From Caldifarciminota bacterium (GTDB lineage Bacteria > Hydrothermota > Tepidihabitantia > SM23-42), in NCBI GenBank assembly GCA_027026255.1, contig JALVOT010000015.1:1-64000 (forward strand): a stretch of 64,000 bases of DNA. The letters run 5' to 3'. Each line of letters opens with the position of its first letter. Position 1 is the stretch's first letter. The position numbers and the translations under genes were made by a program. Of the stretch, positions 6,508 through 54,711 are shown piece by piece. The notes beneath the pieces are model-generated. The model saw nothing but the letters and a program-made list of their open reading frames with translations, was not told the DNA's origin and searched no databases.

Positions 6508-6601
6508 TGGCGGAGGCGTGTAGGAATCGAACCTACCGTCCCCCTTTCGAAGGACACCTGGATTTGAAGTCCAGTAGGCACACCAGCACCTATCCGCCTC
6601 C
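6508..6601 (-). tRNA. selC: tRNA-Sec (anticodon UCA), with encoded CCA
   Basis: The transcript starts GGAGGCGG at 6601. A long D stem (TAGGTGC/GTGCCTA with two G-U pairs, 4-nt loop) is followed by anticodon arm CTGGA-CTTCAAA-TCCAG with UCA, then a long variable arm (GTCC..GGAC core), the T arm GTAGG-TTCGATT-CCTAC and a 3' end CGCCTCC-G-CCA. The length is 94 nt, like other bacterial tRNA-Sec. The first seven acceptor pairs are perfect. The eighth position, where bacterial tRNA-Sec usually has an extra pair, is G opposite A. It reads towards selB from its own promoter. Confidence 0.96.
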
Positions 6602-42752: not shown

Positions 42753-43295
42753 CTAAGCTGGCTTTTTTAAGTTTTTGCCGTAGGTGTAGCCCTTTTCAAA
42801 TGCCTTCAGGTTGAGAGGAATCGCCTTTTCCGGAACAGAATCCGGGATTGCCTTTTTCATCGCTTCGGGGCTTACAACATCGGTGATTGCAGTAAAGAAG
42901 CCGAGCATTACTACATTGGCCACAATTTTTATTCCCAGTTCTTCAGCAAATCTTGTTGCCGGGATGGCGAATGTTGTGTTCACCCTATCCGACTTTGGTT
43001 TTACAAGGTCTTCATCATAAAGAAGAATTCCGTTTTCTTTGAGTTCAGATTCAAATTTATCATACCCGGCCTGGGACATTGCAACTAAGATGTCTGATTT
43101 TGTAACATAGGGATATAGTACCTTTGTTTCTGCAACAACAAGCTGGGAACTGCAGGCACCGCCGCGGGCTTCAGGTCCGAACGATTGATTCATTGTGGCA
43201 AATTTATTGTCATAGATAGAGGCAGCTTTACCGACAATAATCCCGGAACGAATAATACCCTGGCCTCCATATCCGGCAAATCTTATTTCAAACAT
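42753..43295 (-). CDS. 2-oxoacid:ferredoxin oxidoreductase gamma subunit
   Basis: The 180-residue protein is the gamma-type subunit that helps bind CoA. Motifs are IRFAGYGGQGIIRSG at the start and NQSFGPEARGGACSSQLV. The start is ATG 43295 with AAGGAAGG about 8 nt upstream. A GTG three codons earlier sits directly on that Shine-Dalgarno. It is the last gene of the redox operon and follows the degenerate beta subunit by 1 nt. Only one gamma gene serves the two alpha/beta pairs. Confidence 0.92.
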   Translation of the reverse strand: MFEIRFAGYGGQGIIRSGIIVGKAASIYDNKFATMNQSFGPEARGGACSSQLVVAETKVLYPYVTKSDILVAMSQAGYDKFESELKENGILLYDEDLVKPKSDRVNTTFAIPATRFAEELGIKIVANVVMLGFFTAITDVVSPEAMKKAIPDSVPEKAIPLNLKAFEKGYTYGKNLKKPA

Positions 43296-43296
43296 C

Positions 43297-44073
43297 CTAT
43301 TCACCTTCCTTTTTTGGTTCTGCTACCGCCCCTGAATAGGGGATGAATTTATCACCCAAAACCCTGGTAAGCTGGGCATTATATGTGTCGAGATAGGTAG
43401 GTCTTTCTAATGTAGTGAATCTTCCAATAATAATCTTTTGATCGTTTCTGATTTCTGTTTCCCTTGGTTCAATTCCCTCTTTTATTTCTGAATTTTCATA
43501 GTAGAAGTTTAATAAACTCGATTCAATTTTATCAATGCCCTGATAGTAATTTAATCCCGGCGCCAACACCTCAATTACTGATAGTCCATTTTTCTGAAGT
43601 GCTTCGGTTATCGATTTTGCCAGTTCATCGGTATGAAGGGCAGTCCAGCGCGCCGTATAGACCGCACCGCAGGAATTTGCAAGATGTGGGATATTAAAGG
43701 GCTCTTCAAATGTGGAATAGGCGGAAAATTTTGTGGTAGTTTCTGGTGCGGATTTATGGGCAATTTCCCGATATATAAAACTGTTGATGCAGATGACGGT
43801 TAGTTCCATATTTCTTCGTCCGGCATGAACAAGATGATTACCACCCAGGGTGATCAGATCACCGATTATTGGAATTACCTTTAATGATGGATTGGTAAGT
43901 TTCAGTCCGGTGCCAAAGGCAACTGCCCGACCTCGATTGGTATGGAAATAATCCACGCCAAGATATTTTATATCCTCGGGCCGAAATGGAATATCCGATG
44001 TTATTGAAATCTTTTGTGGGTTTATACCCGATTCTTTAATCCCATTTGCCAGTGTTTCAATAAATGTACTCAT
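43297..44073 (-). CDS. Degenerate 2-oxoacid:ferredoxin oxidoreductase beta-like subunit
   Basis: Residues are numbered here with the five-residue longer TTG frame from 44088 for comparison; the chosen start is ATG 44073, overlapping the alpha stop as ATGA. The protein aligns along its length with the beta subunit at 45301-46155 (FHTNRGRAVAFGTGLKL, GGNHLVHAGRRN, FNIPHLANSCGAVYTARWTALH) but has lost the working parts. There is no CPGC at the N-terminus. GIGC is replaced by DIPF. SPC is replaced by APG. The ThDP-metal motif SGDGD is now PIIGD, and NNFIYAMTGGQ is now NSFIYREIAHK. It cannot hold the [4Fe-4S] cluster and probably not ThDP-Mg. It is intact and in a tight operon, so a structural role is inferred. 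Confidence 0.85.
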   Translation of the reverse strand: MSTFIETLANGIKESGINPQKISITSDIPFRPEDIKYLGVDYFHTNRGRAVAFGTGLKLTNPSLKVIPIIGDLITLGGNHLVHAGRRNMELTVICINSFIYREIAHKSAPETTTKFSAYSTFEEPFNIPHLANSCGAVYTARWTALHTDELAKSITEALQKNGLSVIEVLAPGLNYYQGIDKIESSLLNFYYENSEIKEGIEPRETEIRNDQKIIIGRFTTLERPTYLDTYNAQLTRVLGDKFIPYSGAVAEPKKEGE

Positions 44074-45311
44074 TCCTTTGCACTCCAATTTCCTTCAAAG
44101 ACCAATTTTTCTAACCTTGTCTTGAATTCAATGATACCTTCGGATTTTTTCTCCTTTTGTGCACCCAGTTCGATAGCATCACAGATATCCTGGGGATTGT
44201 GAACGCCCGCACCACCGTGGGGAACAAGCACAACATTGGCTTTTCCATCACAACACCTTTCTATCTCAAAGACAATCTGTCCATAATTGATTTCCGGAAC
44301 CACAAATGCCTTGACTCGATTTGCCAGTTCTCTAATCTTTTCATCGGGAAACGGCCAGACCGTAACAAGCCTGAGATTTCCGACCTTGATACCTTTTTCC
44401 CGCGCCATATCAATCCCTTTTATTGCTACCCTTGAGGATATGCCGTAGGAGACAACCACTACTTCGCAGTTTTCAGTTTCTTCTTCTTTCAGTTCAATAA
44501 TCTTATCTTTATTTTTTTGAATTTTATCGATAAGCCTTTTAAGATATATTCCCCTTGGTTCATCCTTTTTAACAGGATAGCCCTTTTCATTATGGGCAAG
44601 TCCGCTGATGAATAGATTCAGACCATCCCCGGCTTTTGCAATCTGGGGGATGAGGTCGGAGCCAGGTTTAAATGGTAGATATTCTTCCGCCGACCCCTTA
44701 TAGAAGTTTCTGGGTTCAATCTCAATTTCATCAGCTGCCGGGATGACAACCTTTTCTGTCATATGACCAACACATTCATCCGCCATAATCATTACAGGGC
44801 AGCGGTATTTCTCGGCAAGGTTGAATGCCTTGATTGTATAATCGAACATTTCCTGGGGAGAATCCGGGGAAATCGCAATGATTTCATAATCACCATGTGA
44901 ACCCCAGCGTGACTGCATCATATCTGCCTGACCGGTTTTGGTCGGTACCCCTGTAGATGGGCCACCCCGCTGAACATTTAGCAGGACAAAAGGTGTTTCA
45001 AGCATTGCCCCGTATCCGATTGTTTCCATCATCAATGAATAGCCGGGTCCTGATGTAATCGTCATCGCCTTGGCTCCTCCCCAGGCAGCACCTAAAACTG
45101 CGGCAATAGAAGCGAGTTCATCTTCCATCTGGATGAAGATTGCCCCGGCTTTTGGTGCGACACGGGCAAATGCCTCGGCGGCTTCAGTAGAAGGGGTAAT
45201 CGGATAGCCAGCAATAAATTTGCATCCTGCAGCCAATGCACCCCAGCCGGCAGCGACATCACCGTCAATATAATAGACACCGGTAAGAACTGATTTTGGA
45301 TCAGCCTTCAT
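44070..45311 (-). CDS. 2-oxoacid:ferredoxin oxidoreductase alpha subunit, canonical
   Basis: The 413-residue protein holds the pyrimidine-binding and transketolase C-terminal-like domains of a KorA/VorA-type alpha subunit. The substrate-pocket motif GYPITPSTE is intact (T39), as is QRGGPSTGVPT (S119, T120). These are the residues that contact the 2-oxoacid in the family. GSHGDYEII and the EINYGQIVFEIERC stretch are also present. GGAGAGG precedes the ATG, which overlaps the preceding beta gene by 11 nt. The 2-oxoacid (2-oxoglutarate or a branched-chain type) cannot be told from sequence. Confidence 0.93.
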   Translation of the reverse strand: MKADPKSVLTGVYYIDGDVAAGWGALAAGCKFIAGYPITPSTEAAEAFARVAPKAGAIFIQMEDELASIAAVLGAAWGGAKAMTITSGPGYSLMMETIGYGAMLETPFVLLNVQRGGPSTGVPTKTGQADMMQSRWGSHGDYEIIAISPDSPQEMFDYTIKAFNLAEKYRCPVMIMADECVGHMTEKVVIPAADEIEIEPRNFYKGSAEEYLPFKPGSDLIPQIAKAGDGLNLFISGLAHNEKGYPVKKDEPRGIYLKRLIDKIQKNKDKIIELKEEETENCEVVVVSYGISSRVAIKGIDMAREKGIKVGNLRLVTVWPFPDEKIRELANRVKAFVVPEINYGQIVFEIERCCDGKANVVLVPHGGAGVHNPQDICDAIELGAQKEKKSEGIIEFKTRLEKLVFEGNWSAKE

Positions 45312-46155
45312 TGTCCTCTCCTTTTATCTGAGTGCGCCATTTATTGTAACGTTCCGTATAACTTGGTCTTTCCCGATCGACAAATTTACCGCAGATAATA
45401 TTCGATTGGAACGGGATATCAAGATTTTTTGTATTCTCACCATGTCGGATTTCTGCATTGGTATGATAGAACCTCATCATATCGATTCCATCCCCCAGAC
45501 GATTAATCCGGGAGTAATACTGGGCACAGGGTGATATAACTTCAATCAAAGAAAATCCTGTTTTATGCAATGCCTCAACTATGGAGGTTGCCAATCTGCG
45601 CACATGGAGTGCAGTCCAGCGTGCAACATAGACCGCACCTGCAGAATCAGCAATATAGGGAATATTGAATGGCGGTTCAACACATCCGTAAGGTGAAGTG
45701 GTGGCATAGGCGGTAAGTGGGGTGGTCGGGGCAACCTGACCACCGGTCATCGCATAGATGAAGTTATTTACACAAATCACAACCATATCAATATTTCTTC
45801 GTGCGGCATGGATAAAGTGATTTCCACCGATTGCAAGCAGGTCTCCATCACCGGAAAAGACGATGACCTTTAAATTAGGATTTGCCAGTTTAATACCGGT
45901 TGCAAATGGAATAGCCCGACCATGGGTTGTGTGGAATGAGTCAAGTTTCACATAACCTGCTACCCTTCCGGTGCAGCCAATGCCGGAAACAATGCAGACA
46001 TTATTTAAGTCAACCTGTGCCTTATCAAGTGCTGCGGCAAGGGTGGTAACTGCAATGCCGATACCACAACCCGGACACCAGATATGGGGTAGTCGGTCCA
46101 TCCGGAGAAGATTCTCCATCGGATGGTAGGTATTCCTTGTGGTTAATGTTTCCAT
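45301..46155 (-). CDS. 2-oxoacid:ferredoxin oxidoreductase beta subunit, catalytic
   Basis: The 284-residue protein has all parts needed for activity. The four Cys of the [4Fe-4S] cluster are C27 and C30 in WCPGCG, C61 in GIGCTGR and C210 in ISPC. The ThDP-Mg motif is GDGD at 102-105 with NN at 130-131 (NNFIYAMTGGQ). It is the only gene in this operon that can carry the ThDP chemistry. Its own operon neighbour on the 5' side is the altered alpha subunit, and the canonical alpha follows on the 3' side. Confidence 0.94.
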   Translation of the reverse strand: METLTTRNTYHPMENLLRMDRLPHIWCPGCGIGIAVTTLAAALDKAQVDLNNVCIVSGIGCTGRVAGYVKLDSFHTTHGRAIPFATGIKLANPNLKVIVFSGDGDLLAIGGNHFIHAARRNIDMVVICVNNFIYAMTGGQVAPTTPLTAYATTSPYGCVEPPFNIPYIADSAGAVYVARWTALHVRRLATSIVEALHKTGFSLIEVISPCAQYYSRINRLGDGIDMMRFYHTNAEIRHGENTKNLDIPFQSNIICGKFVDRERPSYTERYNKWRTQIKGEDNEG

Positions 46156-46170
46156 AATGATACCTTTTTT

Positions 46171-47370
46171 TTATTTTGGAGCATATTCAATAATTCCTTC
46201 TTTTTTACTATTTTCCCTGGATGCCTGAATAATTGCATTTAATATGTCATCGGAATTTTCAACACCCTTTTCACCGTGGGTAACAAATATTGTGTTTGCA
46301 TTCCCCTGACTGCATCTCTGGATTTCATAAACGAGCTGGCCATAATTCATCTCAACCGCGACAAATGCCTTTGCCTTTCTGGAAAGTTCCCGGACGCGAT
46401 TTTCAGCAAAGGGCCAGATTGTATCGAGTTTTAATAAACCGGTTTTTATCCCTTGCTCTCTTGCCTTTTGTTGTGCCTGTTTTGCTGCTGAGAAACTTGA
46501 ACCATAGGCAATAACTATAATCTCAGCATCTTCGGTTGCCAGTTCTTGAAAGCGGACAATCTTTTCTGCATAATTTCGAATCTTTCGGACCAGGGGATGA
46601 ACATTAAATTCCTGACATTCTTCATTCATTATCGGATAGCCCCGTTCATCATGGGTCAGACCTGTAACATGGAATTTATATCCAGCCCCGATGTCAACAA
46701 GCCTGGGGATAAGGTCTTCATCCCTTTTAAAGGGTAGATATTTTTCCTGGGGACCATCATAATATCGTCTCGGTTCAAGTTTGATATCCTCGGCGCGGGG
46801 GATTGTAACATCGGATTTCAGATTGACTAAATAACCATCGGTGAGAACAACTACAGGAACCCGGTAATGTTCAGAAAAGTTGAATGCCTTAATCATAAAA
46901 TCAAAGATTTCCTGAACCGTGGAAGGCGCAAGGCCAATTATTTCATAGTCACCATGAGAACCCCATCTTGATTGGAAGATATCACCCTGGGCCGGTGCAG
47001 TTGGTATGCCGTGCCCTGGTCCGACCCGCTGAACATCAACGATGACACAGGGTGTTTCAAGCATCACCCCGAGTCCCATATGTTCCATCATCAAAGAGAG
47101 TCCCGGTCCTGAAGTAACGGTCATAGACCTCCTTCCGGTCCAGGATGCACCAAGCACTGCAGCCAGTGCAGATATCTCATCCTCCATCTGGACATATACT
47201 GCATCCAGGGTCTTTGCCCGCTCTAAAAAATAGTTACTTATCTCAATCGCCGGTTCAATGGGATACATACCAAGGAATCGGCATCCAGCCGAGATTGCCC
47301 CTTCAACACAGGCTTGACTTCCACTTAATTGATGGGTCCCGGTTTTTAATGAATCTTTTGGCGGCTTCAT
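46171..47370 (-). CDS. 2-oxoacid:ferredoxin oxidoreductase alpha-like subunit with altered substrate motifs
   Basis: The 399-residue protein aligns closely with the canonical alpha subunit at 44070-45311, with identical numbering through the first 130 residues. Two pocket motifs differ: YPITPSTE is YPIEPAIE (Glu at 39 in place of Thr), and GGPSTGVPT is VGPGHGIPT (G119, H120). The rest (VTSGPGLSLMMEHMG, SRWGSHGDYEI, EMNYGQLVYEIQRC) is conserved. It could be a structural partner or accept a different substrate. It starts 6 nt after the flavoprotein gene. Confidence 0.88.
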   Translation of the reverse strand: MKPPKDSLKTGTHQLSGSQACVEGAISAGCRFLGMYPIEPAIEISNYFLERAKTLDAVYVQMEDEISALAAVLGASWTGRRSMTVTSGPGLSLMMEHMGLGVMLETPCVIVDVQRVGPGHGIPTAPAQGDIFQSRWGSHGDYEIIGLAPSTVQEIFDFMIKAFNFSEHYRVPVVVLTDGYLVNLKSDVTIPRAEDIKLEPRRYYDGPQEKYLPFKRDEDLIPRLVDIGAGYKFHVTGLTHDERGYPIMNEECQEFNVHPLVRKIRNYAEKIVRFQELATEDAEIIVIAYGSSFSAAKQAQQKAREQGIKTGLLKLDTIWPFAENRVRELSRKAKAFVAVEMNYGQLVYEIQRCSQGNANTIFVTHGEKGVENSDDILNAIIQASRENSKKEGIIEYAPK

Positions 47371-47376
47371 CGGTCT

Positions 47377-49035
47377 TTAAAATATGTCAATTATACGGGC
47401 TAAAGCGGCCCGGCCTCGATAATCGGGTAAGAGAATCGGTGCGCGTCTTTCAGGTTTAATCCCTGCCTCATTAAGCATATCAATATATTTTTTAACATGT
47501 TCCAAGGTAATGTTTCCGGTTTCAGTATGGGTTTTGACATATTCAGCAGCATTTATTCCTGCCCTTCTACCAAAGACAAGACAGTCAAGGGTAGAATTGC
47601 CCATTAAACGATTCTTTCCGTGCACACCACCAGATACCTCTCCAGCAACCCAGAGGCCTTCAACATTTGTCCTTCCCCAGGGGTCGGTTTCTACCCCGCC
47701 ATTTTGGTAGTGCAGGGTAGGAAATACCAATACCGGATCCTTTGACATGTCAATACCATTTCTTTTGTACAGACGGGTCATTCCGGGAAAAGCCCGGGCA
47801 AGATAGCCCTTACCATTTTTAATATCAATAAGCGGCGTATCAAGCCAGATTCCTCTTAATCCGGTTGGTGTGGTAATCCCTTTGTTTCTCACATAACACT
47901 CTCGAATAAATGATGCGGCTTCAACATCCCGGGGTTCGAGTGGGAAGACAAATGCTTCACCATCAACATTCACTGGTTGGGCACCACTGCTGCGAAGTTT
48001 CTCAGTAAGCAGATAACCGACAATCTGAATTGGATAGGCAGCACCGGTTGGGTGGTATTGCACTGTATCAATATCCCGCAATTTTACACCGACCCGATAG
48101 GCAAGTACCGGACCATCAAATGTTGCACCATAATGATTTGTTGTTGGAAAACCCCGGATATGAAGTCTTCCAAATCCTCCGGTCGCCAGAATCGTTGCCT
48201 TGGCACGAACAATTTTGTATTCGCCGGTCTCCAAATTCCATAAAATCGCTCCGGTTACTTTATTATTATCATCGGTAAGCAGTTCAATTGCCGGATACTG
48301 CTCCAGACAGAGGATCTGCCGATTCCTGAATTCATCCCTGATTACCCTTAACTCTTCCAAACCGGTGTAGTCGCGGCAGGAATGCATACGTTTTATAGAA
48401 GTTCCACCACCCCATTTTTCCACCAGTTCACCATTCTCTTCACGGTCAAAGATGGCACCCATTTCAATCAACCATTTGATAATAAATGGAGCGTCTTCAA
48501 CCAGGGCACGCACAACATCCGGTTTGTTGGCAAAGTGACCGCCTCCTATTGTATCAAGATAATGGCGCTGGACTGAATCGATTTCCCGGTCTGCAGCCTG
48601 GGTTCCGCCTTCAGCCATAATGGAATTGGCATCGCCGTGCCGAAGTTTGTTAACAAGAAGAATTTTATCACTTGGTACACCACTATTATTCGCCCATAGT
48701 GCGGCAGATGTTCCGGCAAGCCCGCCGCCAATAATTAAGATATCGGTCTCATAGTCTATTTTTGAGAGATCGGTTTTGCCGGGGTCAATTAAGGGATATG
48801 CCTCAAGTAGATCGACGACCTCATTGGGGCCAATATCACCTTTGTTGGGCCCTATTGTGATCACCCTTTTTCCACCCGGGGCATAGTCAGGATGGACCTT
48901 AAGGACTTCTTCCTGTTCCTGTCTGGACATTGCCGGCGGCGTATAGTTGATTCTGCTTGATCTTGTCTTTTCAACCTTTTCAATAAGTTTTCTCATATAT
49001 TCAGGATATCCATCGATCAATTTAATCTCAGCCAT
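47377..49035 (-). CDS. Fumarate reductase/succinate dehydrogenase-like flavoprotein
   Basis: The 552-residue protein has about 95 extra N-terminal residues, then the FAD fold GGGLAGTSAA at 103-112. Catalytic-domain motifs of the FrdA/SdhA family follow: MAEGGTQAA, QYHPTGAAYP, LLTEKLRSSG, LHYQNGG, VAGEVSGGVHGKNRLMGNSTLD and VFGRRAG. The residue where FrdA bears covalent FAD is Asn137, not His, so FAD should be non-covalent. The C-terminal helical domain is almost absent (about 45 residues after RRAG). The neighbouring FrdB-like and HdrB genes suggest a thiol:fumarate reductase (TfrA)-like role, oxidising a dithiol or taking electrons from Hdr to reduce fumarate. This is inference. Confidence 0.85.
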   Translation of the reverse strand: MAEIKLIDGYPEYMRKLIEKVEKTRSSRINYTPPAMSRQEQEEVLKVHPDYAPGGKRVITIGPNKGDIGPNEVVDLLEAYPLIDPGKTDLSKIDYETDILIIGGGLAGTSAALWANNSGVPSDKILLVNKLRHGDANSIMAEGGTQAADREIDSVQRHYLDTIGGGHFANKPDVVRALVEDAPFIIKWLIEMGAIFDREENGELVEKWGGGTSIKRMHSCRDYTGLEELRVIRDEFRNRQILCLEQYPAIELLTDDNNKVTGAILWNLETGEYKIVRAKATILATGGFGRLHIRGFPTTNHYGATFDGPVLAYRVGVKLRDIDTVQYHPTGAAYPIQIVGYLLTEKLRSSGAQPVNVDGEAFVFPLEPRDVEAASFIRECYVRNKGITTPTGLRGIWLDTPLIDIKNGKGYLARAFPGMTRLYKRNGIDMSKDPVLVFPTLHYQNGGVETDPWGRTNVEGLWVAGEVSGGVHGKNRLMGNSTLDCLVFGRRAGINAAEYVKTHTETGNITLEHVKKYIDMLNEAGIKPERRAPILLPDYRGRAALARIIDIF

Positions 49036-49049
49036 TTTTACTCCTTTCT

Positions 49050-49805
49050 TTAATCTGGTTCCCGCTGGCGCTCTGCATACATCTTTTCCAGCTCTTCCCT
49101 TGATTTACTTGTGATAGTATCCATCGCCTCTTTGAATTTTCCCTTTTCAATCTCCTCAACCCGTTTTTTTAGATGTTTGGGCATAGTCAGACCATATCGA
49201 CCATACATTCTTCTTCCTAATTGGGCGACATGATACTGGACGATTTCTGCTGGACACCTGATTGCACACATACCACACTGGATGCAGTCAAATGAATCAT
49301 CGGCAACAGCTTCAAAATCACCCCGGATTGCCGACTGCACATAGTCCATCACCTCTAAATCCTGGGGGCAGGACTTTGTGCAGGTGTTGCAGGATACACA
49401 CCTGGCAACCTCAGGATAGTATTTTATAAATACCGAGGCATCATAGGGTTCTTTGGTGATGTCATATATCGCCTTTTCTGCAGGTGAGAAAGGAATCTGT
49501 ACCAAATACATTCCATCTTCAACCCTGGTTTGACAGGCTAAATCCGCCTGAAGTTTATATTCACCTGCTCTTCGGTAGATTGTAGCACAGGCACCACAAT
49601 GGCCCTGTCTGCATCCAACACTTCGGAGTAGTCGATAGCCAGCATATTCAATTGCCGTAAGGATTGTTAAATCTGCAGGAACCCTATAGCCTTTTCCCAT
49701 TATATAGATTGTGACCCAATCCTTGATATCCTTTTCATCAACCCCGGTGGTTACAGGACGATTTGCCTCGGCAATTCTTTCCATAATGTTGGTTTTCTCT
49801 TCCAT
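49050..49805 (-). CDS. Fumarate reductase/succinate dehydrogenase-like iron-sulfur protein
   Basis: The 251-residue protein has a [2Fe-2S] domain (GCRQGHCGACATIY and a later Cys in DLACQTRV). A two-cluster helical domain follows (CVSCNTCTKSCPQ and CIQCGMCAIRCPA). The layout is FrdB/SdhB-like, but the second motif set has the full CxxCxxC-CP spacing of two [4Fe-4S] clusters. The tail (about 200-251) is charged. In methanogen thiol:fumarate reductase, TfrB fuses this part to an HdrB-like part. Here the two are separate genes with a 13-nt gap. Confidence 0.9.
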   Translation of the reverse strand: MEEKTNIMERIAEANRPVTTGVDEKDIKDWVTIYIMGKGYRVPADLTILTAIEYAGYRLLRSVGCRQGHCGACATIYRRAGEYKLQADLACQTRVEDGMYLVQIPFSPAEKAIYDITKEPYDASVFIKYYPEVARCVSCNTCTKSCPQDLEVMDYVQSAIRGDFEAVADDSFDCIQCGMCAIRCPAEIVQYHVAQLGRRMYGRYGLTMPKHLKKRVEEIEKGKFKEAMDTITSKSREELEKMYAERQREPD

Positions 49806-49818
49806 ATTTTTTTTCTCC

Positions 49819-50715
49819 TTACTTTATAAGTCCCTTTTTCTTGAGCAGGGGTTTAGGATCCACATAATTCTGGTTAAAACCAAAGGTTTTATTATCAAGG
49901 CCGAAGGCAACCGCAATTAGTTGTGTAATGTAGAATACAGGCATCTGCTGGAAATCAGGATGGTTTTTTAGTACCTCTTTTTGGCGTGTATCAAGATTGA
50001 AGGCGCATAGGGGACAGCAGGTTGTTATCGCCTCGGCTCCTTCCTGTTGGGCATGACCCAGAATATTATAAGCAAGTTCCGCCACCTTTTCTTTATTATT
50101 AACGGTTTGATAACTTCCGCAACATACCTTTTTATAGGGATTGTCAATCACCTCAGCGCCGAGTGCCTCAAGCAGGTCCTTCTGGATTGTTGGATCCTCC
50201 GGGTCATCAATACCTACCTCTATGGGTCTTAATATCATACATCCATAATATGGGGCAACCCTTAGATTCTTTAAAGGATTTTTTGCTTTCGCCTTCAACT
50301 TATCAAAACCGATTTCTTTTAATAATTCTAATAATTGAATCACTTCAATCTCGGCACGGTAATCCTTTTCTCGATACATTAAGTCATTTATTTTTTTTAG
50401 GTCTTCAGTATTTTCCTTAACACGCAGGTTACTTCTTTTCAGTGTATTAAAACACATTGAACAGAGGGTAAGGACACGTTTTTCATCTTCTATCTGACCA
50501 TTTTCTATCATTTCCTGAACCCGGATTAGATTTCTTATTGGTGCGACATGATGAATTAAGTCATCAGCGGTTAAGGAGAATACAGTGCCGCAGCAGGTCC
50601 ACCTCGGCAATTCGACCATTTCAATGCCCAGTTCCCGGGCGATTGCGATTGCTGAGGTTTCAAAATTTTTTGCAGTTGTTTTTAAGGTGCACCCAGGATA
50701 ATAAGCAATTTTCAA
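49819..50715 (-). CDS. hdrB: Heterodisulfide reductase subunit B-like (two CCG domains)
   Basis: The 298-residue protein has two complete CCG (cysteine-rich) domains. The first contains YYPGCTLK, WTCCGTVF and LCSMCFNTL; the second YYGCMILRP, VCCGSYQT and TTCCPLCAFNL. In methanogen HdrB these hold noncubane [4Fe-4S] clusters that cleave a disulfide. This bacterium should lack CoM-S-S-CoB, so the acceptor is either another disulfide or, by TfrB analogy, electrons pass to the flavoprotein. It sits between hdrC and the FrdB-like gene. Confidence 0.93.
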   Translation of the reverse strand: MKIAYYPGCTLKTTAKNFETSAIAIARELGIEMVELPRWTCCGTVFSLTADDLIHHVAPIRNLIRVQEMIENGQIEDEKRVLTLCSMCFNTLKRSNLRVKENTEDLKKINDLMYREKDYRAEIEVIQLLELLKEIGFDKLKAKAKNPLKNLRVAPYYGCMILRPIEVGIDDPEDPTIQKDLLEALGAEVIDNPYKKVCCGSYQTVNNKEKVAELAYNILGHAQQEGAEAITTCCPLCAFNLDTRQKEVLKNHPDFQQMPVFYITQLIAVAFGLDNKTFGFNQNYVDPKPLLKKKGLIK

Positions 50716-50724
50716 TTCACACCC

Positions 50725-51126
50725 CTATCCGGTAAATTTTCGACAGGCACTTACAATTGCAATCTGAGGAAGGGAAACAAGTTCATATTTGGGGATTTTC
50801 TTTATTTCGACATAGTCAAGCGCCTTTCTCAGATATACCTGTCTTAATGCTTCAGCAACCTTGGAGACATCAAGGTTGCGGGGACATCGGACTGTGCAGC
50901 TGTAACAGGAGGCGCATACCCATATTGCTTTGCTATTTAATACATCCAGATCACCCAATTGGACCATCCTCATTATCTGTGATGGTGTAATGTCCATATC
51001 CGCCACCATAGGACAGGAACCAGAGCAGGTTCCGCACTGTTCACAAAGGGTTATGTCCTGATCAGCCAGTTCATTAATCTTTTTCAGAAATTTGATATTC
51101 TCTGAGGTGATGACAAGTTTCTTCAT
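50725..51126 (-). CDS. hdrC: Heterodisulfide reductase subunit C-like
   Basis: The 133-residue ferredoxin-like protein has two [4Fe-4S] motifs, CEQCGTCSGSCPM and CASCYSCTVRCPR, with the ITPSQIMRMVQLGD helix typical of HdrC. It is shorter than the ~180 residues of many HdrC. The stop is a TAG, so the short end is not a hidden selenocysteine. It overlaps mvhD by 4 nt. It passes electrons between HdrA and HdrB. Confidence 0.93.
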   Translation of the reverse strand: MKKLVITSENIKFLKKINELADQDITLCEQCGTCSGSCPMVADMDITPSQIMRMVQLGDLDVLNSKAIWVCASCYSCTVRCPRNLDVSKVAEALRQVYLRKALDYVEIKKIPKYELVSLPQIAIVSACRKFTG

Positions 51127-51545
51127 TGCTTAGAAACCTCCTTCTTGAGTGGTCCGAGTTTTTCAATCTCATTGATGAATTCATTGACAACTTTCTGAAA
51201 TTTGCCACCCTCATTTGCGGAAATCCATTCCAGCCTGACACGCTCAGGTTCGATACCAAGACTGCTTAATAGACTCTTAAGCAGGATTATTCTCCTTAAA
51301 GTTTTATAATTGCCATCCACATAATGACAATCTCCAGGATGACAACCAGCAACCAGTATACCCCAGGCACCACGGTCAAATGCTTCCAAGATCAGTTCCA
51401 GGTCAATCCGACTTGAACACATACTTCTGATAATTCTAAAATGGGGCTTCATCTGAAGTCTTGATGTTCCTGCAGCATCAGCCCCAGCATAAGAACACCA
51501 GTTGCAGCAGAAAGCAATTACTTTTGGTTCGTTATTGTCTTTCAT
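51123..51545 (-). CDS. mvhD: MvhD/HdrD-type [2Fe-2S] electron-transfer subunit
   Basis: The 140-residue protein has the MvhD signatures FCCNWCSYAGADAAGTSRL, MCSSRIDLELI and GCHPGDCHYVDGNYK. All are Cys; none of the positions that can be selenocysteine in methanogen VhuD is UGA here. MvhD normally links HdrA to a hydrogenase or formate dehydrogenase. No such catalytic subunits are in this operon, so it may join the OFOR or another donor. It is coupled on both sides by 4-nt overlaps. Confidence 0.93.
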   Translation of the reverse strand: MKDNNEPKVIAFCCNWCSYAGADAAGTSRLQMKPHFRIIRSMCSSRIDLELILEAFDRGAWGILVAGCHPGDCHYVDGNYKTLRRIILLKSLLSSLGIEPERVRLEWISANEGGKFQKVVNEFINEIEKLGPLKKEVSKQ

Positions 51546-53494
51546 GATACCTCCTCACCCAGAGCCGCACTGAGCATTGCGTGAAGTTGTGGCGTCATAA
51601 ACCAGCGCTGTTGTTGTGCTCCGGATGGACAGGCAGCAACGCAGGCACCACAACCCTGGCACACGACCTCATTTACCCTGGAAACCCGTTTTCCCTGTTT
51701 TAATTCAATGGTAATCGCATCATAGGGGCAGACCCCGGCACAGATACCACAGCCACTGCAAAGTTCTTCATCAACAAATGCGGTAATCGGGTCAACCTCA
51801 AATTCACCTTTATTCATCAATCGAATGGCACGGGCAGCAGCAGCACTTGCCTGGGCAACAGTGTCCGGAATATCTTTGGGACCCTGGGCGCAGCCACAGA
51901 TGAAGACTCCATCGGCAAGTGTATCAACCGGTCGGAACTTTGGATGTGCTTCCTGGAGCCATCCTCCAGGACTCTTAATTAGTCTCAGGGTATCAGCGAT
52001 CTTTAGTGTTCCTGGACTTGGTCTTAAACCGACCGAGAGGACAACCAGATCAAATTCCGATTCAATAATATCCCTGGTTAAGGTATCTTCAACCTTTAAT
52101 GTTACCTTATTTGTGCGTTTGTCCTCGTGGAGTTCAGCAACCCGTCCTCGAATAAATTTAACCCCGGTGCGTTGTGCCCTTTTATAATATTCTTCAAATC
52201 CTTTTCCATAGGCACGCAAGTCAATATAGAAGACATAGACATCCCTTTTCGGGTCGGCTCGTTTTAAGAGCTGAGATAGTTTTGTCGCATACATACAGCA
52301 GATTCGGGAACAGTATTCATTGCCTACCAGTTCATCCCGGGAACCAACACACTGAATAAATGCAATGCGTTTACCAATCGGTCTTAATGATGTTCCTTCA
52401 GCTTCAAGTGAAATAAGTCGTTCCAAATCCAGGGCAGTGATAATATTCTTGCTCCGGGCAAATTCGTAGACCTTCTTTTTTCTGGGGTCAAAGATTTCAT
52501 ATCCGGTAGCGACGATAATCGTATCTACCGTGAAGTTAAGACGTTCAGGTTTCTGATCATAATTTATTGCTCCGGGGTCACAGACATCATAACATTTACT
52601 GCAGGCAAGGGGGAATAGTCCAAGACAGGTTTTATCATCAAGCACATAGGAATGAGGGACTGCAATCGGGTTGGGAAGATATATCGCCTTTCGAGAACTC
52701 AGGCCTTCATCGTGTTCATTCGGCACCACCACTGGACAAACCTCAGCACACTTATCGCAGGCAGTGCATTTACTGGTATCTACATATCGTGGTTTTTTTA
52801 CAGCCACAACATCATAATTCCCCAGGAATCCGCTGATACTTTCGATTTCAGTATTGGTGAGAAGTTCGATATTTGGATTAGCCGGGACATCAGCCATTTT
52901 TGGCGAGAGGATACAGGCTGCACAGTCTTCAGTGGGAAAGGTCCTTGACAATTTTACCATCTTACCGCCGATAGATGGTTCTTTTTCAACCAGGTAGACC
53001 TTAAAACCTGCATCTCCGAGGTCTAAAGCAGCCTGAATACCAGCGATGCCTGCTCCAATAACCAAAACCCTTTTTCCGATTGGTGAGGTCTTTTTCTCTA
53101 AGGGTTCATCCAATCTTGCCTTGGCAATTGCCATTCGGACAATATCTTTTGCTTTTTTTGTGGCATATTCTGGTTCATAGTAATGGGGCCAGGAGCATTG
53201 TTCTCGAATATTTGCCATCTCCATTACATAAGGAGATAAGCCGGCTTTTTCAACCGTACCCATAAAGGTTCTTCCATGGAATTGTGGAGAGCAGGCAGCG
53301 ATTACCACCTTGTCAAGGTTATGTTCTTTTATGTCGTCCACGAGCATCTTCCGGGCAACATCAGAGCACATATGGGCATGCTCTTTAACCAGAACAACAT
53401 CACCCTGCTGCTCGGCAAATTTCATCACCCTTTTGATGTCTACGACCTCAGAAATGTTTCCACCGCAATGGCAGACATAAACCCCAATTTTCAT
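51542..53494 (-). CDS. hdrA: Heterodisulfide reductase subunit A (flavin, bifurcation module)
   Basis: HdrA is the FAD protein that splits electron pairs in Hdr complexes. The 650-residue product has the N-terminal VCHCGGNISEVVD domain and an FAD-binding thioredoxin-reductase-like core (VLVIGAGIAGIQAALDLGDAG). An inserted cluster region follows (TFPTEDCAACILSPKM, CTACDKCAEVCP), with the second flavin region (GLRPSPGTL, FICGCAQGPKDI) and two C-terminal [4Fe-4S] motifs (CSGCGICAGVCP, CQGCGACVAACP). It has a separate promoter just upstream, 136 nt from the ferredoxin gene. All Cys are encoded as Cys. Confidence 0.95.
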   Translation of the reverse strand: MKIGVYVCHCGGNISEVVDIKRVMKFAEQQGDVVLVKEHAHMCSDVARKMLVDDIKEHNLDKVVIAACSPQFHGRTFMGTVEKAGLSPYVMEMANIREQCSWPHYYEPEYATKKAKDIVRMAIAKARLDEPLEKKTSPIGKRVLVIGAGIAGIQAALDLGDAGFKVYLVEKEPSIGGKMVKLSRTFPTEDCAACILSPKMADVPANPNIELLTNTEIESISGFLGNYDVVAVKKPRYVDTSKCTACDKCAEVCPVVVPNEHDEGLSSRKAIYLPNPIAVPHSYVLDDKTCLGLFPLACSKCYDVCDPGAINYDQKPERLNFTVDTIIVATGYEIFDPRKKKVYEFARSKNIITALDLERLISLEAEGTSLRPIGKRIAFIQCVGSRDELVGNEYCSRICCMYATKLSQLLKRADPKRDVYVFYIDLRAYGKGFEEYYKRAQRTGVKFIRGRVAELHEDKRTNKVTLKVEDTLTRDIIESEFDLVVLSVGLRPSPGTLKIADTLRLIKSPGGWLQEAHPKFRPVDTLADGVFICGCAQGPKDIPDTVAQASAAAARAIRLMNKGEFEVDPITAFVDEELCSGCGICAGVCPYDAITIELKQGKRVSRVNEVVCQGCGACVAACPSGAQQQRWFMTPQLHAMLSAALGEEVS

Positions 53495-53629: not shown

Positions 53630-53908
53630 TTAATGAACCGGCGTCTTTGCATCTTCTTTTTTGGTTACATAAATCGCGAATTCTGGACAGAGCATTTCAC
53701 ATAAATGACATTCTGCGCAGTTATCAGGATTTTTTATTCGGGGTGGATGATAGCCCTTGATATTAAATTCTTCTGAAAGTTCTAAAACATCACGTGGACA
53801 ATATTCTATGCAGAAACTGCATCCCTTGCATCTATCCTTGATAATATGGACCTCACCTATGACGACATTTATCTTATCAGCATCAAGTGGTTTTCTTTGA
53901 AAAATCAT
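53630..53908 (-). CDS. Ferredoxin-type delta subunit of the 2-oxoacid oxidoreductase
   Basis: The 92-residue protein has two [4Fe-4S] motifs, CKGCSFCIEYCP and CAECHLCEMLCP, in the layout of KorD/VorD delta subunits (with the RDVLELSEEFN linker and a GYHPPRI stretch). It opens the redox operon, far from the other OFOR subunits at the 3' end, with its own promoter and AAGGAGCG before the ATG. It probably carries electrons from the OFOR beta cluster to HdrA. Confidence 0.9.
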   Translation of the reverse strand: MIFQRKPLDADKINVVIGEVHIIKDRCKGCSFCIEYCPRDVLELSEEFNIKGYHPPRIKNPDNCAECHLCEMLCPEFAIYVTKKEDAKTPVH

Positions 53909-53993: not shown

Positions 53994-54160
53994 TACATTT
54001 TAAAAAACAGGAATAAAAAGTTGTGCTTTTTCTCAGTGATGTTGATTTTATTACTTTTGGATTTAGGGATTTTTTAGGATTTAAAAAATATGATGCGGCA
54101 GTTACTGTAATCTATTTTAAATTAAGCCCTCAGTTGAATCAAAAGAAGGGGAACGAATAA
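53994..54160 (+). other. Intergenic stretch, unassigned
   Basis: A partly open frame reads FGFRDFLGFKKYDAAVTVIYF and stops. It may belong to the same decayed locus as the next two features, but no family is recognised. Confidence 0.2.
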
Positions 54161-54164
54161 ATCA

Positions 54165-54360
54165 AGAACTTTTTTTAATATTCCATACCTTGCCTAAATC
54201 AGTGGTGCAGAATATATCGCCCGCTGGTCTGTGCTTAATAGCCGGCGTTTTGTTCTATCCTTTGAAACATAATACATTTAGTGTGATTGAGGTGATATCT
54301 CCCTGTTTGATGTATCTTAAGAAGTACCAGCATATTGAAACATCGATTGAAAGGATGTAT
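54165..54360 (+). pseudogene. Decayed OFOR beta subunit fragment
   Basis: In shifting frames the + strand reads NIPYLA, a stop, then GAEYIARWSVLNSRRFVLSFE, a stop, and FSVIEVISPCLMYLKK with a final helix. These match in order the C-terminal third of the intact beta subunit at 45301-46155 (NIPYIADSAGAVYVARWTALH, GFSLIEVISPC). It is a third, dead beta-type copy just outside the redox operon and on the opposite strand. Confidence 0.75.
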
Positions 54361-54386
54361 CTTTATAAAAGATGCTGCTGTTGATA

Positions 54387-54711
54387 ATGAAGCTTGGTGA
54401 GCCGGATAAGAGTGGTCGTCCCAGGCCGATAAAGATTCCGGGTAGCGAATTTATTATGGAACTTGATACGGTTGTTGAGGTATTGGGAATAAGACCAAAC
54501 CGACTTTTCCTTGATAAGGTGCCGGGTTTTGAAAGAACCAGATGGGAGACATTAGAGGTTGATGAAAAACTTGAGACCAGTATTAAGGGTGTCTTTGCAG
54601 GGGGGGGATGCAATAAGGGGAAATGCTACAGTAATTCTTGCCCTTGGTGATGGAAGGAAGGCAGCAGAATCAATTCATAAATATATTACTTCAAAGCTTG
54701 ACTTCACATAA
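54387..54711 (+). pseudogene. C-terminal fragment of a GltD/NfnB-like NADPH oxidoreductase
   Basis: The fragment reads MKLGEPDKSGRPRPIKIPG, VVEVLGIRPN, and TSIKGVFAGG. After a run of eight G (54600-54607) it continues in another frame as DAIRGNATVILALGDG and RKAAESIHKYI to TAA 54709-54711. This is the end of a glutamate-synthase small-subunit-like flavoprotein. One extra G breaks the frame and the first ~350 residues are missing. The tamB promoter -35 box lies in its last codons. Confidence 0.8.

Follow-up and report, generated by a model that had tools for sequence, protein, structure and literature searches.

2-Oxoacid:ferredoxin oxidoreductases (OFORs) are common enzymes of anaerobic carbon metabolism. 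ThDP enzymes, OFORs included, are dimers with two active sites, and whether these sites react alternately is a long-standing question. The closest solved relatives by sequence of the proteins described here are the four-subunit 2-oxoglutarate:ferredoxin oxidoreductase (OorDABC/KorABCD type) of H. pylori (8ys5) and the alpha chain of a 2-keto acid:ferredoxin oxidoreductase (1yd7). The catalytic residues have been assigned in the StOFORs of Sulfolobus tokodaii, dimers with two sites about 16 Å apart (PMC5020499). In StOFOR1, two essential residues, Thr256 and Arg344, hold the carboxylate of the substrate, Thr349 lies near the methyl group (T349L is neutral, and DaPFOR has Leu there), Glu294 activates ThDP, and Mg is bound in beta by a GDG motif and an Asn (PMC5020499). 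Asp468 of one protomer reaches into the pocket of the other, and a D468A mutant loses 2-oxoglutarate activity (PMC5020499).

Here we describe an OFOR locus in a 64,000-nucleotide stretch of DNA from a Caldifarciminota bacterium (the window; contig JALVOT010000015.1). Like the OorDABC/KorABCD enzymes, it encodes alpha (domains I-II), beta (VI), gamma (III) and ferredoxin subunits, and alpha2 and beta1 together have the full set of catalytic motifs. However, the usual enzyme of this type is encoded by a single alpha and a single beta gene and has two identical sites, whereas this locus contains two divergent genes of each kind with reciprocal motif loss, in the order alpha1-beta1-alpha2-beta2-gamma (Table 1). 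StOFOR1 and StOFOR2 share the fold and the pocket residues and are the source of our Thr256, Arg344, Thr349, Asp468′ and Lys49 assignments, but they are (alpha-beta)2 with equivalent sites and an alpha fused to a gamma-like domain (PMC5020499). Both alphas score far above the Pfam cut-offs for POR_N and PFOR_II. The gamma (PF01558) and 2x[4Fe-4S] delta subunits are present, the latter with an OGOR_delta match below cut-off, and in many relatives the ferredoxin-subunit gene lies immediately upstream of the OFOR genes.

Table 1. Positions of the OFOR genes, their diagnostic motifs and the upstream genes in the window.
Feature	Position	Strand	Basis
alpha1, KorA-like, 399 aa	46171..47370	-	POR_N + PFOR_II; YPIEP/GPGHG; own clade, support 100
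Degenerate YPITP of alpha1 (YPIEP, Thr39 to Glu)	47251..47265	-	translation
Degenerate GPSTG of alpha1 (GPGHG)	47008..47022	-	translation
alpha1 loop HVTGLTHDERGYPIMNE, residues 234-250	46621..46671	-	proposed counterpart of the loop that carries Asp468′ across protomers in StOFOR1 (PMC5020499)
beta1, KorB-like, 284 aa, ThDP/Mg and [4Fe-4S] motifs intact	45301..46155	-	TPP_enzyme_C; CPGCG, SGDGD
beta1 cluster motif CPGCG	46063..46077	-	
beta1 Mg-ThDP motif SGDGD	45841..45855	-	
alpha2, KorA-like, 413 aa	44070..45311	-	pocket intact (YPITP, R115, GPSTG); trans loop decayed
alpha2 YPITP	45192..45206	-	translation
beta2, KorB-like, 263 aa, putative pseudo-subunit	43297..44088	-	motif losses; predicted fold
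beta2 ThDP/Mg motif, site of 2-residue deletion (IGDLITLGGN)	43837..43866	-	
gamma, KorC-like, single copy	42753..43304	-	POR PF01558
2x[4Fe-4S] ferredoxin subunit, OorD/KorD-like	53630..53908	-	OGOR_delta is best NCBIfam match, below cut-off; Fer4
HdrA-MvhD-HdrC-HdrB-TfrB-SdhA(TfrA)-like genes	47377..53494	-	co-directional, upstream of OFOR quartet

Reciprocal motif losses in the alpha and beta subunits

An earlier note on this DNA had read YPIEP and GPGHG in alpha1 in place of YPITP and GPSTG, with the standard residues kept by alpha2 at positions 39 and 119-120. Translating the window bears out both observations, with identical numbering in the two proteins; these are 47% identical in a gap-free alignment across residues 1-396, so the positions are equivalent. 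By alignment, positions 39, 115, 120, 65 and 238 in these two proteins correspond to Thr256, Arg344, Thr349, Glu294 and Asp468 of StOFOR1. The premise that the altered residues line the substrate pocket holds for Thr39 (Thr256, essential) and for the location of T120 (Thr349, beside the substrate methyl) (PMC5020499). The loss of GPSTG is by itself weak evidence, since StOFOR1 tolerates T349L and the corresponding residue of DaPFOR is Leu.

In the alignment, Thr39 and T120 are each found in 0/23 alpha1, 22/22 alpha2 and 26/26 single-copy alphas. The 25 readable alpha1 sequences never have Thr at position 39, where V, E, P, I, A, M or Q occurs, nor Ser-Thr at 119-120. The carboxylate-binding Arg115 is present in the window alpha1 and missing from 7 of 23; alpha2 retains 39, 115 and 120 throughout. 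Fitch counting gives 28 changes at pocket residues 39, 115, 119 and 120 in alpha1 and 0 in alpha2. The ThDP-activating Glu65 is kept in all 23 alpha1 sequences. A distant alpha1 in a Latescibacterota MAG (L113, starting at 821) has YPIRP, the oxalate oxidoreductase motif, in an otherwise degenerate context.

The trio E39/G119/H120 is thus not conserved across orthologues, where its residues drift (E39 occurs in just 3/23). Because Glu39 and His120 are unconserved, we read the change in alpha1 as loss of the pocket and not as a new fixed specificity, and this drift, with the loss of Arg115, tells against the suggestion of the earlier note that the substrate differs. Its other suggestion, a withdrawal of alpha1 from catalysis, is half right: the 2-oxoacid pocket of alpha1 is gone, but alpha1 alone retains the loop that would reach across the protomers and so probably serves catalysis in trans. 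The change goes beyond chance or sequencing error, since all 25 orthologues lack the standard residues, every alpha2 and single-copy alpha has Thr at 39 and 120, and purifying selection acts on alpha1 as well as on beta2.

The complementary losses, on which the earlier note does not comment, are in beta2, which is N-terminally shorter, lacks CPGCG, has GDGD reduced to GD by a two-residue deletion, and shows SGIGC changed to SDIPF, HGR to RGR and ISPC to APG. CxxCG, GDGD and the fourth Cys are missing in 24/24 beta2 sequences and present in beta1 and the single-copy betas. Among the traits of KOR/OGOR-type OFORs, YPITP and the Arg344 equivalent are found in alpha2, with alpha1 departing at YPIEP, and the GDG...N Mg-ThDP motif with four cluster cysteines is found in beta1 and in none of the 24 beta2. 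The broken-pocket alpha1 gene adjoins the intact beta1 gene, and the intact alpha2 gene adjoins the broken beta2 gene. At the gene level neither adjacent pair holds all the motifs, the combination of alpha2 with beta1 alone does, and the two equivalent sites of a symmetric dimer are not found. The beta2 monomer is predicted to fold as an OFOR beta (pLDDT 83.4, pTM 0.85; best PDB matches of the model are OFOR beta chains), and its orthologues share about 55 invariant columns, including R52-G53-R54, N84-H85, R91-R92-N93 and W148. The alpha1 monomer model, of low confidence at residues 76-141 and 203-247, was left unused. We also considered a salt bridge between alpha1 Glu39 and the new basic loop residues of beta2 and set it aside, given E39 in only 3/23 and mutual information between alpha1 and beta2 pocket residues that was dominated by phylogeny.

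Distribution and history of the quartet

In a survey of 147 genomes of the phylum of the window, and of the loci around the matches, two arrangements were found, Fd-alpha-beta-gamma and Fd-alpha1-beta1-alpha2-beta2-gamma. The scan was then extended to one genome per GTDB species. The reciprocal-loss pattern occurs in some 30 genomes from several phyla, always with alpha2 and beta1 intact, and the wider scan added MAGs assigned to WOR-3/Stahlbacteria, Cloacimonadota, Armatimonadetes, Latescibacterota and Phycisphaerae, although some of these labels may be wrong. The order of the quartet is fixed, with one gamma gene. A degenerate beta2 is always accompanied by alpha1 where the contig extends far enough, and the 46 scanned loci without beta2 contain intact betas only (degenerate beta in 0/46). 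A further KOR-like alpha (44-48% identity) is encoded by 6 of 7 relatives checked and is absent from G012 (97% complete), where no second enzyme of this type seems to accompany the asymmetric one.

A quick tree method was applied to 71 alphas and 68 betas. Here alpha1 and alpha2 each form a clade with support 100; the node uniting the two has support 95 and lies within the single-copy alphas. Likewise, beta1 (98) and beta2 (100) fall within the single-copy betas. The trees show a single tandem alpha-beta duplication followed by reciprocal decay, with the quartet inherited as a unit from then on, as judged from these sequences, and probably transferred between phyla. Well-diverged pairs of alpha1 and of beta2 have dN/dS of about 0.06-0.13, indicating purifying selection. 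Both evolve faster than their partners (beta2 1148 changes, beta1 715; alpha1 1695 vs alpha2 1170 over the whole protein).

A proposed one-site enzyme and its alternatives

We propose, with a probability of roughly 70%, that the locus encodes a tandem-duplicated, reciprocally decayed OFOR of the four-subunit type that would assemble as an alpha1-beta1-alpha2-beta2 heterotetramer with one composite site. The sequences show one tandem duplication of an alpha-beta gene pair, after which the copies decayed reciprocally: alpha1 lost the 2-oxoacid pocket, and beta2 would have lost ThDP/Mg binding and the proximal [4Fe-4S] cluster. To the single site, beta1 would supply ThDP, Mg and the cluster and alpha2 the Thr/Arg/Thr substrate pocket, and alpha1 would send loop 234-250 across the twofold into the alpha2-beta1 site. 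The alpha1-beta2 pair would be a vestigial site with a structural role, and gamma and the ferredoxin subunit would join the heterotetramer. That all four paralogues are obligate, with the one site drawing on beta1 cofactors, alpha2 pocket and alpha1 loop together, appears probable, if slightly less so. Homo-assemblies of alpha1-beta1 or alpha2-beta2 would be dead, because only alpha2 with beta1 can form a working site. The invariant Glu65 of alpha1 counts against a purely vestigial site, except if the residue acts structurally or as a proton relay. The reciprocal losses and their universality, the single duplication, the purifying selection and the reciprocal loop retention are read directly from the sequences, and from these we infer the assembly, its single-site stoichiometry, the substrate and any benefit. 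In the literature searched, mostly outside subscription journals, no asymmetric OFOR and none with reciprocal pseudo-subunits is described.

The substrate is probably 2-oxoglutarate, because the nearest families are 2-oxoglutarate types, with matches below or near the curated cut-offs, and the neighbouring genes are of TCA type. StOFOR1 requires Lys49 for 2-oxoglutarate, but a K49R variant favoured pyruvate (PMC5020499), and the residue of beta1 aligned with Lys49 is an Arg, R64.

The loop 234-250 was examined since the asymmetric-tetramer model had predicted its reciprocal retention: if alpha2-beta1 is the live site, the trans loop must come from alpha1, and the loop of alpha2 faces the dead site. 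The identification of the alpha1 loop with the StOFOR1 Asp468′ loop is proposed from one published structure and the alignment. Around position 238 the sequence is nearly unchanged in alpha1 and single-copy alphas (HVTGLTHDxRGYP), and in alpha2 it has decayed, with H234 changed to Tyr, T239 variable and indels after 248 in some lineages. Fitch changes at residues 234-241 number 1 in alpha1 and 29 in alpha2, although alpha1 is the faster-evolving protein overall. These counts and those for the pocket take tree-inferred changes as independent, so that the differences are strong and the p-values approximate. Residues 234-261 are the stretch of the entire protein in which retention is most biased towards alpha1. 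This pattern speaks against both a symmetric (alpha2-beta1)2 enzyme and two separate enzymes, because both predict otherwise.

The symmetric arrangement, in which (alpha2-beta1)2 does the work and alpha1 and beta2 stay outside the catalytic tetramer with roles in assembly, regulation or docking, would account for the presence of all classical catalytic motifs in alpha2 and beta1, and the products of the duplicated genes need not be equally abundant. We nevertheless consider it unlikely, as it needs the alpha2 loop for the neighbouring site and this is the loop that decayed, the one in alpha1 being frozen; additionally, the fixed operon order and universal co-occurrence favour a fixed stoichiometry.

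It is also quite unlikely that alpha1-beta1 is a separate enzyme for another substrate with a specificity set by E39, G119 and H120. Such an enzyme would have an intact beta1 and the Glu65 of alpha1, and oxalate oxidoreductase, with Arg in place of the YPITP Thr, sets a precedent (PMC5020499). However, the supposed specificity residues are unconserved in alpha1 orthologues and Arg115 is lost in 7 of 23, a strictly conserved alpha2 pocket would be left with a beta2 predicted to be unable to bind ThDP, and the loss of the alpha2 trans loop is unexplained.

An asymmetric tetramer in which the alpha1-beta2 interface is regulatory, binding another cofactor or ligand such as CoA or an allosteric effector, is doubtful to a similar degree: beta2 does retain many invariant residues, but most of them are common to beta1 and may be fold residues, and no ligand motif was recognised. 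Finally, the faster evolution of alpha1 and beta2 and apparent stops in some MAG matches could suggest decaying pseudogenes, a reading that we rejected as highly improbable given the low dN/dS, the open frames, the gene order conserved across some 30 genomes and several phyla and the invariant beta2 columns.

Genomic setting and comparison with known systems

The Hdr/Tfr genes upstream of the quartet likely form an electron-transfer and fumarate/succinate module, and their association with the OFOR is seen as co-orientation and adjacency of genes. In rTCA clusters of tubeworm symbionts and Thioflavicoccus, korABCD is interspersed with tfrAB and hdr genes, and an electron-bifurcating supercomplex was proposed (PMC6315080, PMC11636981). 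Those clusters have flx genes and not a lone MvhD, and a korABCD described as ordinary, with no mention of an alpha/beta duplicate in the text consulted (PMC6315080, PMC11636981). A tie between the asymmetry and the Hdr/Tfr module was considered and rejected, as the module is absent from many duplicated loci and, in genome G084, stands beside an ordinary, unduplicated alpha-beta-gamma set. The G084 operon (L080, 5822-15240) runs Fd-HdrA-MvhD-HdrC-HdrB-TfrB-SdhA, with an 80% identical HdrA, and ends in the single intact alpha-beta-gamma; its alpha groups with another family (G067), and possibly a symmetric set has replaced the asymmetric one in this genome.

Several other features were observed in the window. 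The SdhA/TfrA-like flavoprotein (47377-49035, minus strand) is extended by about 90 residues at its N-terminus, and the match to its family stops near 431 of 568 profile positions, as if the usual C-terminal domain were missing. An eroded remnant divergent from the operon (54160-54711, plus strand) contains a piece resembling the C-terminus of a KOR beta (53% to beta1 over 30 aa), followed by what appears by eye to be a frameshifted GltD/SudA-like C-terminal piece. A tRNA-Sec with anticodon TCA (6508-6601, minus strand) suggests selenoprotein use in this genome.

If the one-site reading is true, a lineage with one site permanently off is a natural experiment on site communication. The quartet is also an example of reciprocal degeneration in two gene families simultaneously. 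Annotation pipelines would, on this reading, wrongly call half of these subunits catalytic KorA/KorB.

Oxalate oxidoreductase of Moorella resembles this system in that the YPITP Thr is replaced in an active OFOR. There the Arg of YPIRP is needed for oxalate; the window alpha1 has YPIEP, the alpha1 family shows no fixed replacement, and one beta here is predicted to be unable to bind ThDP. In serine palmitoyltransferase, SPTLC1/2 pair a catalytic and a pseudo-catalytic paralogue in each dimer, a case in which duplication and loss produced an obligate heteromer with fewer sites. Compared with SPTLC1/2, the decay seen here is reciprocal over two gene families, affecting the pocket in one alpha and the cofactors in the other beta.
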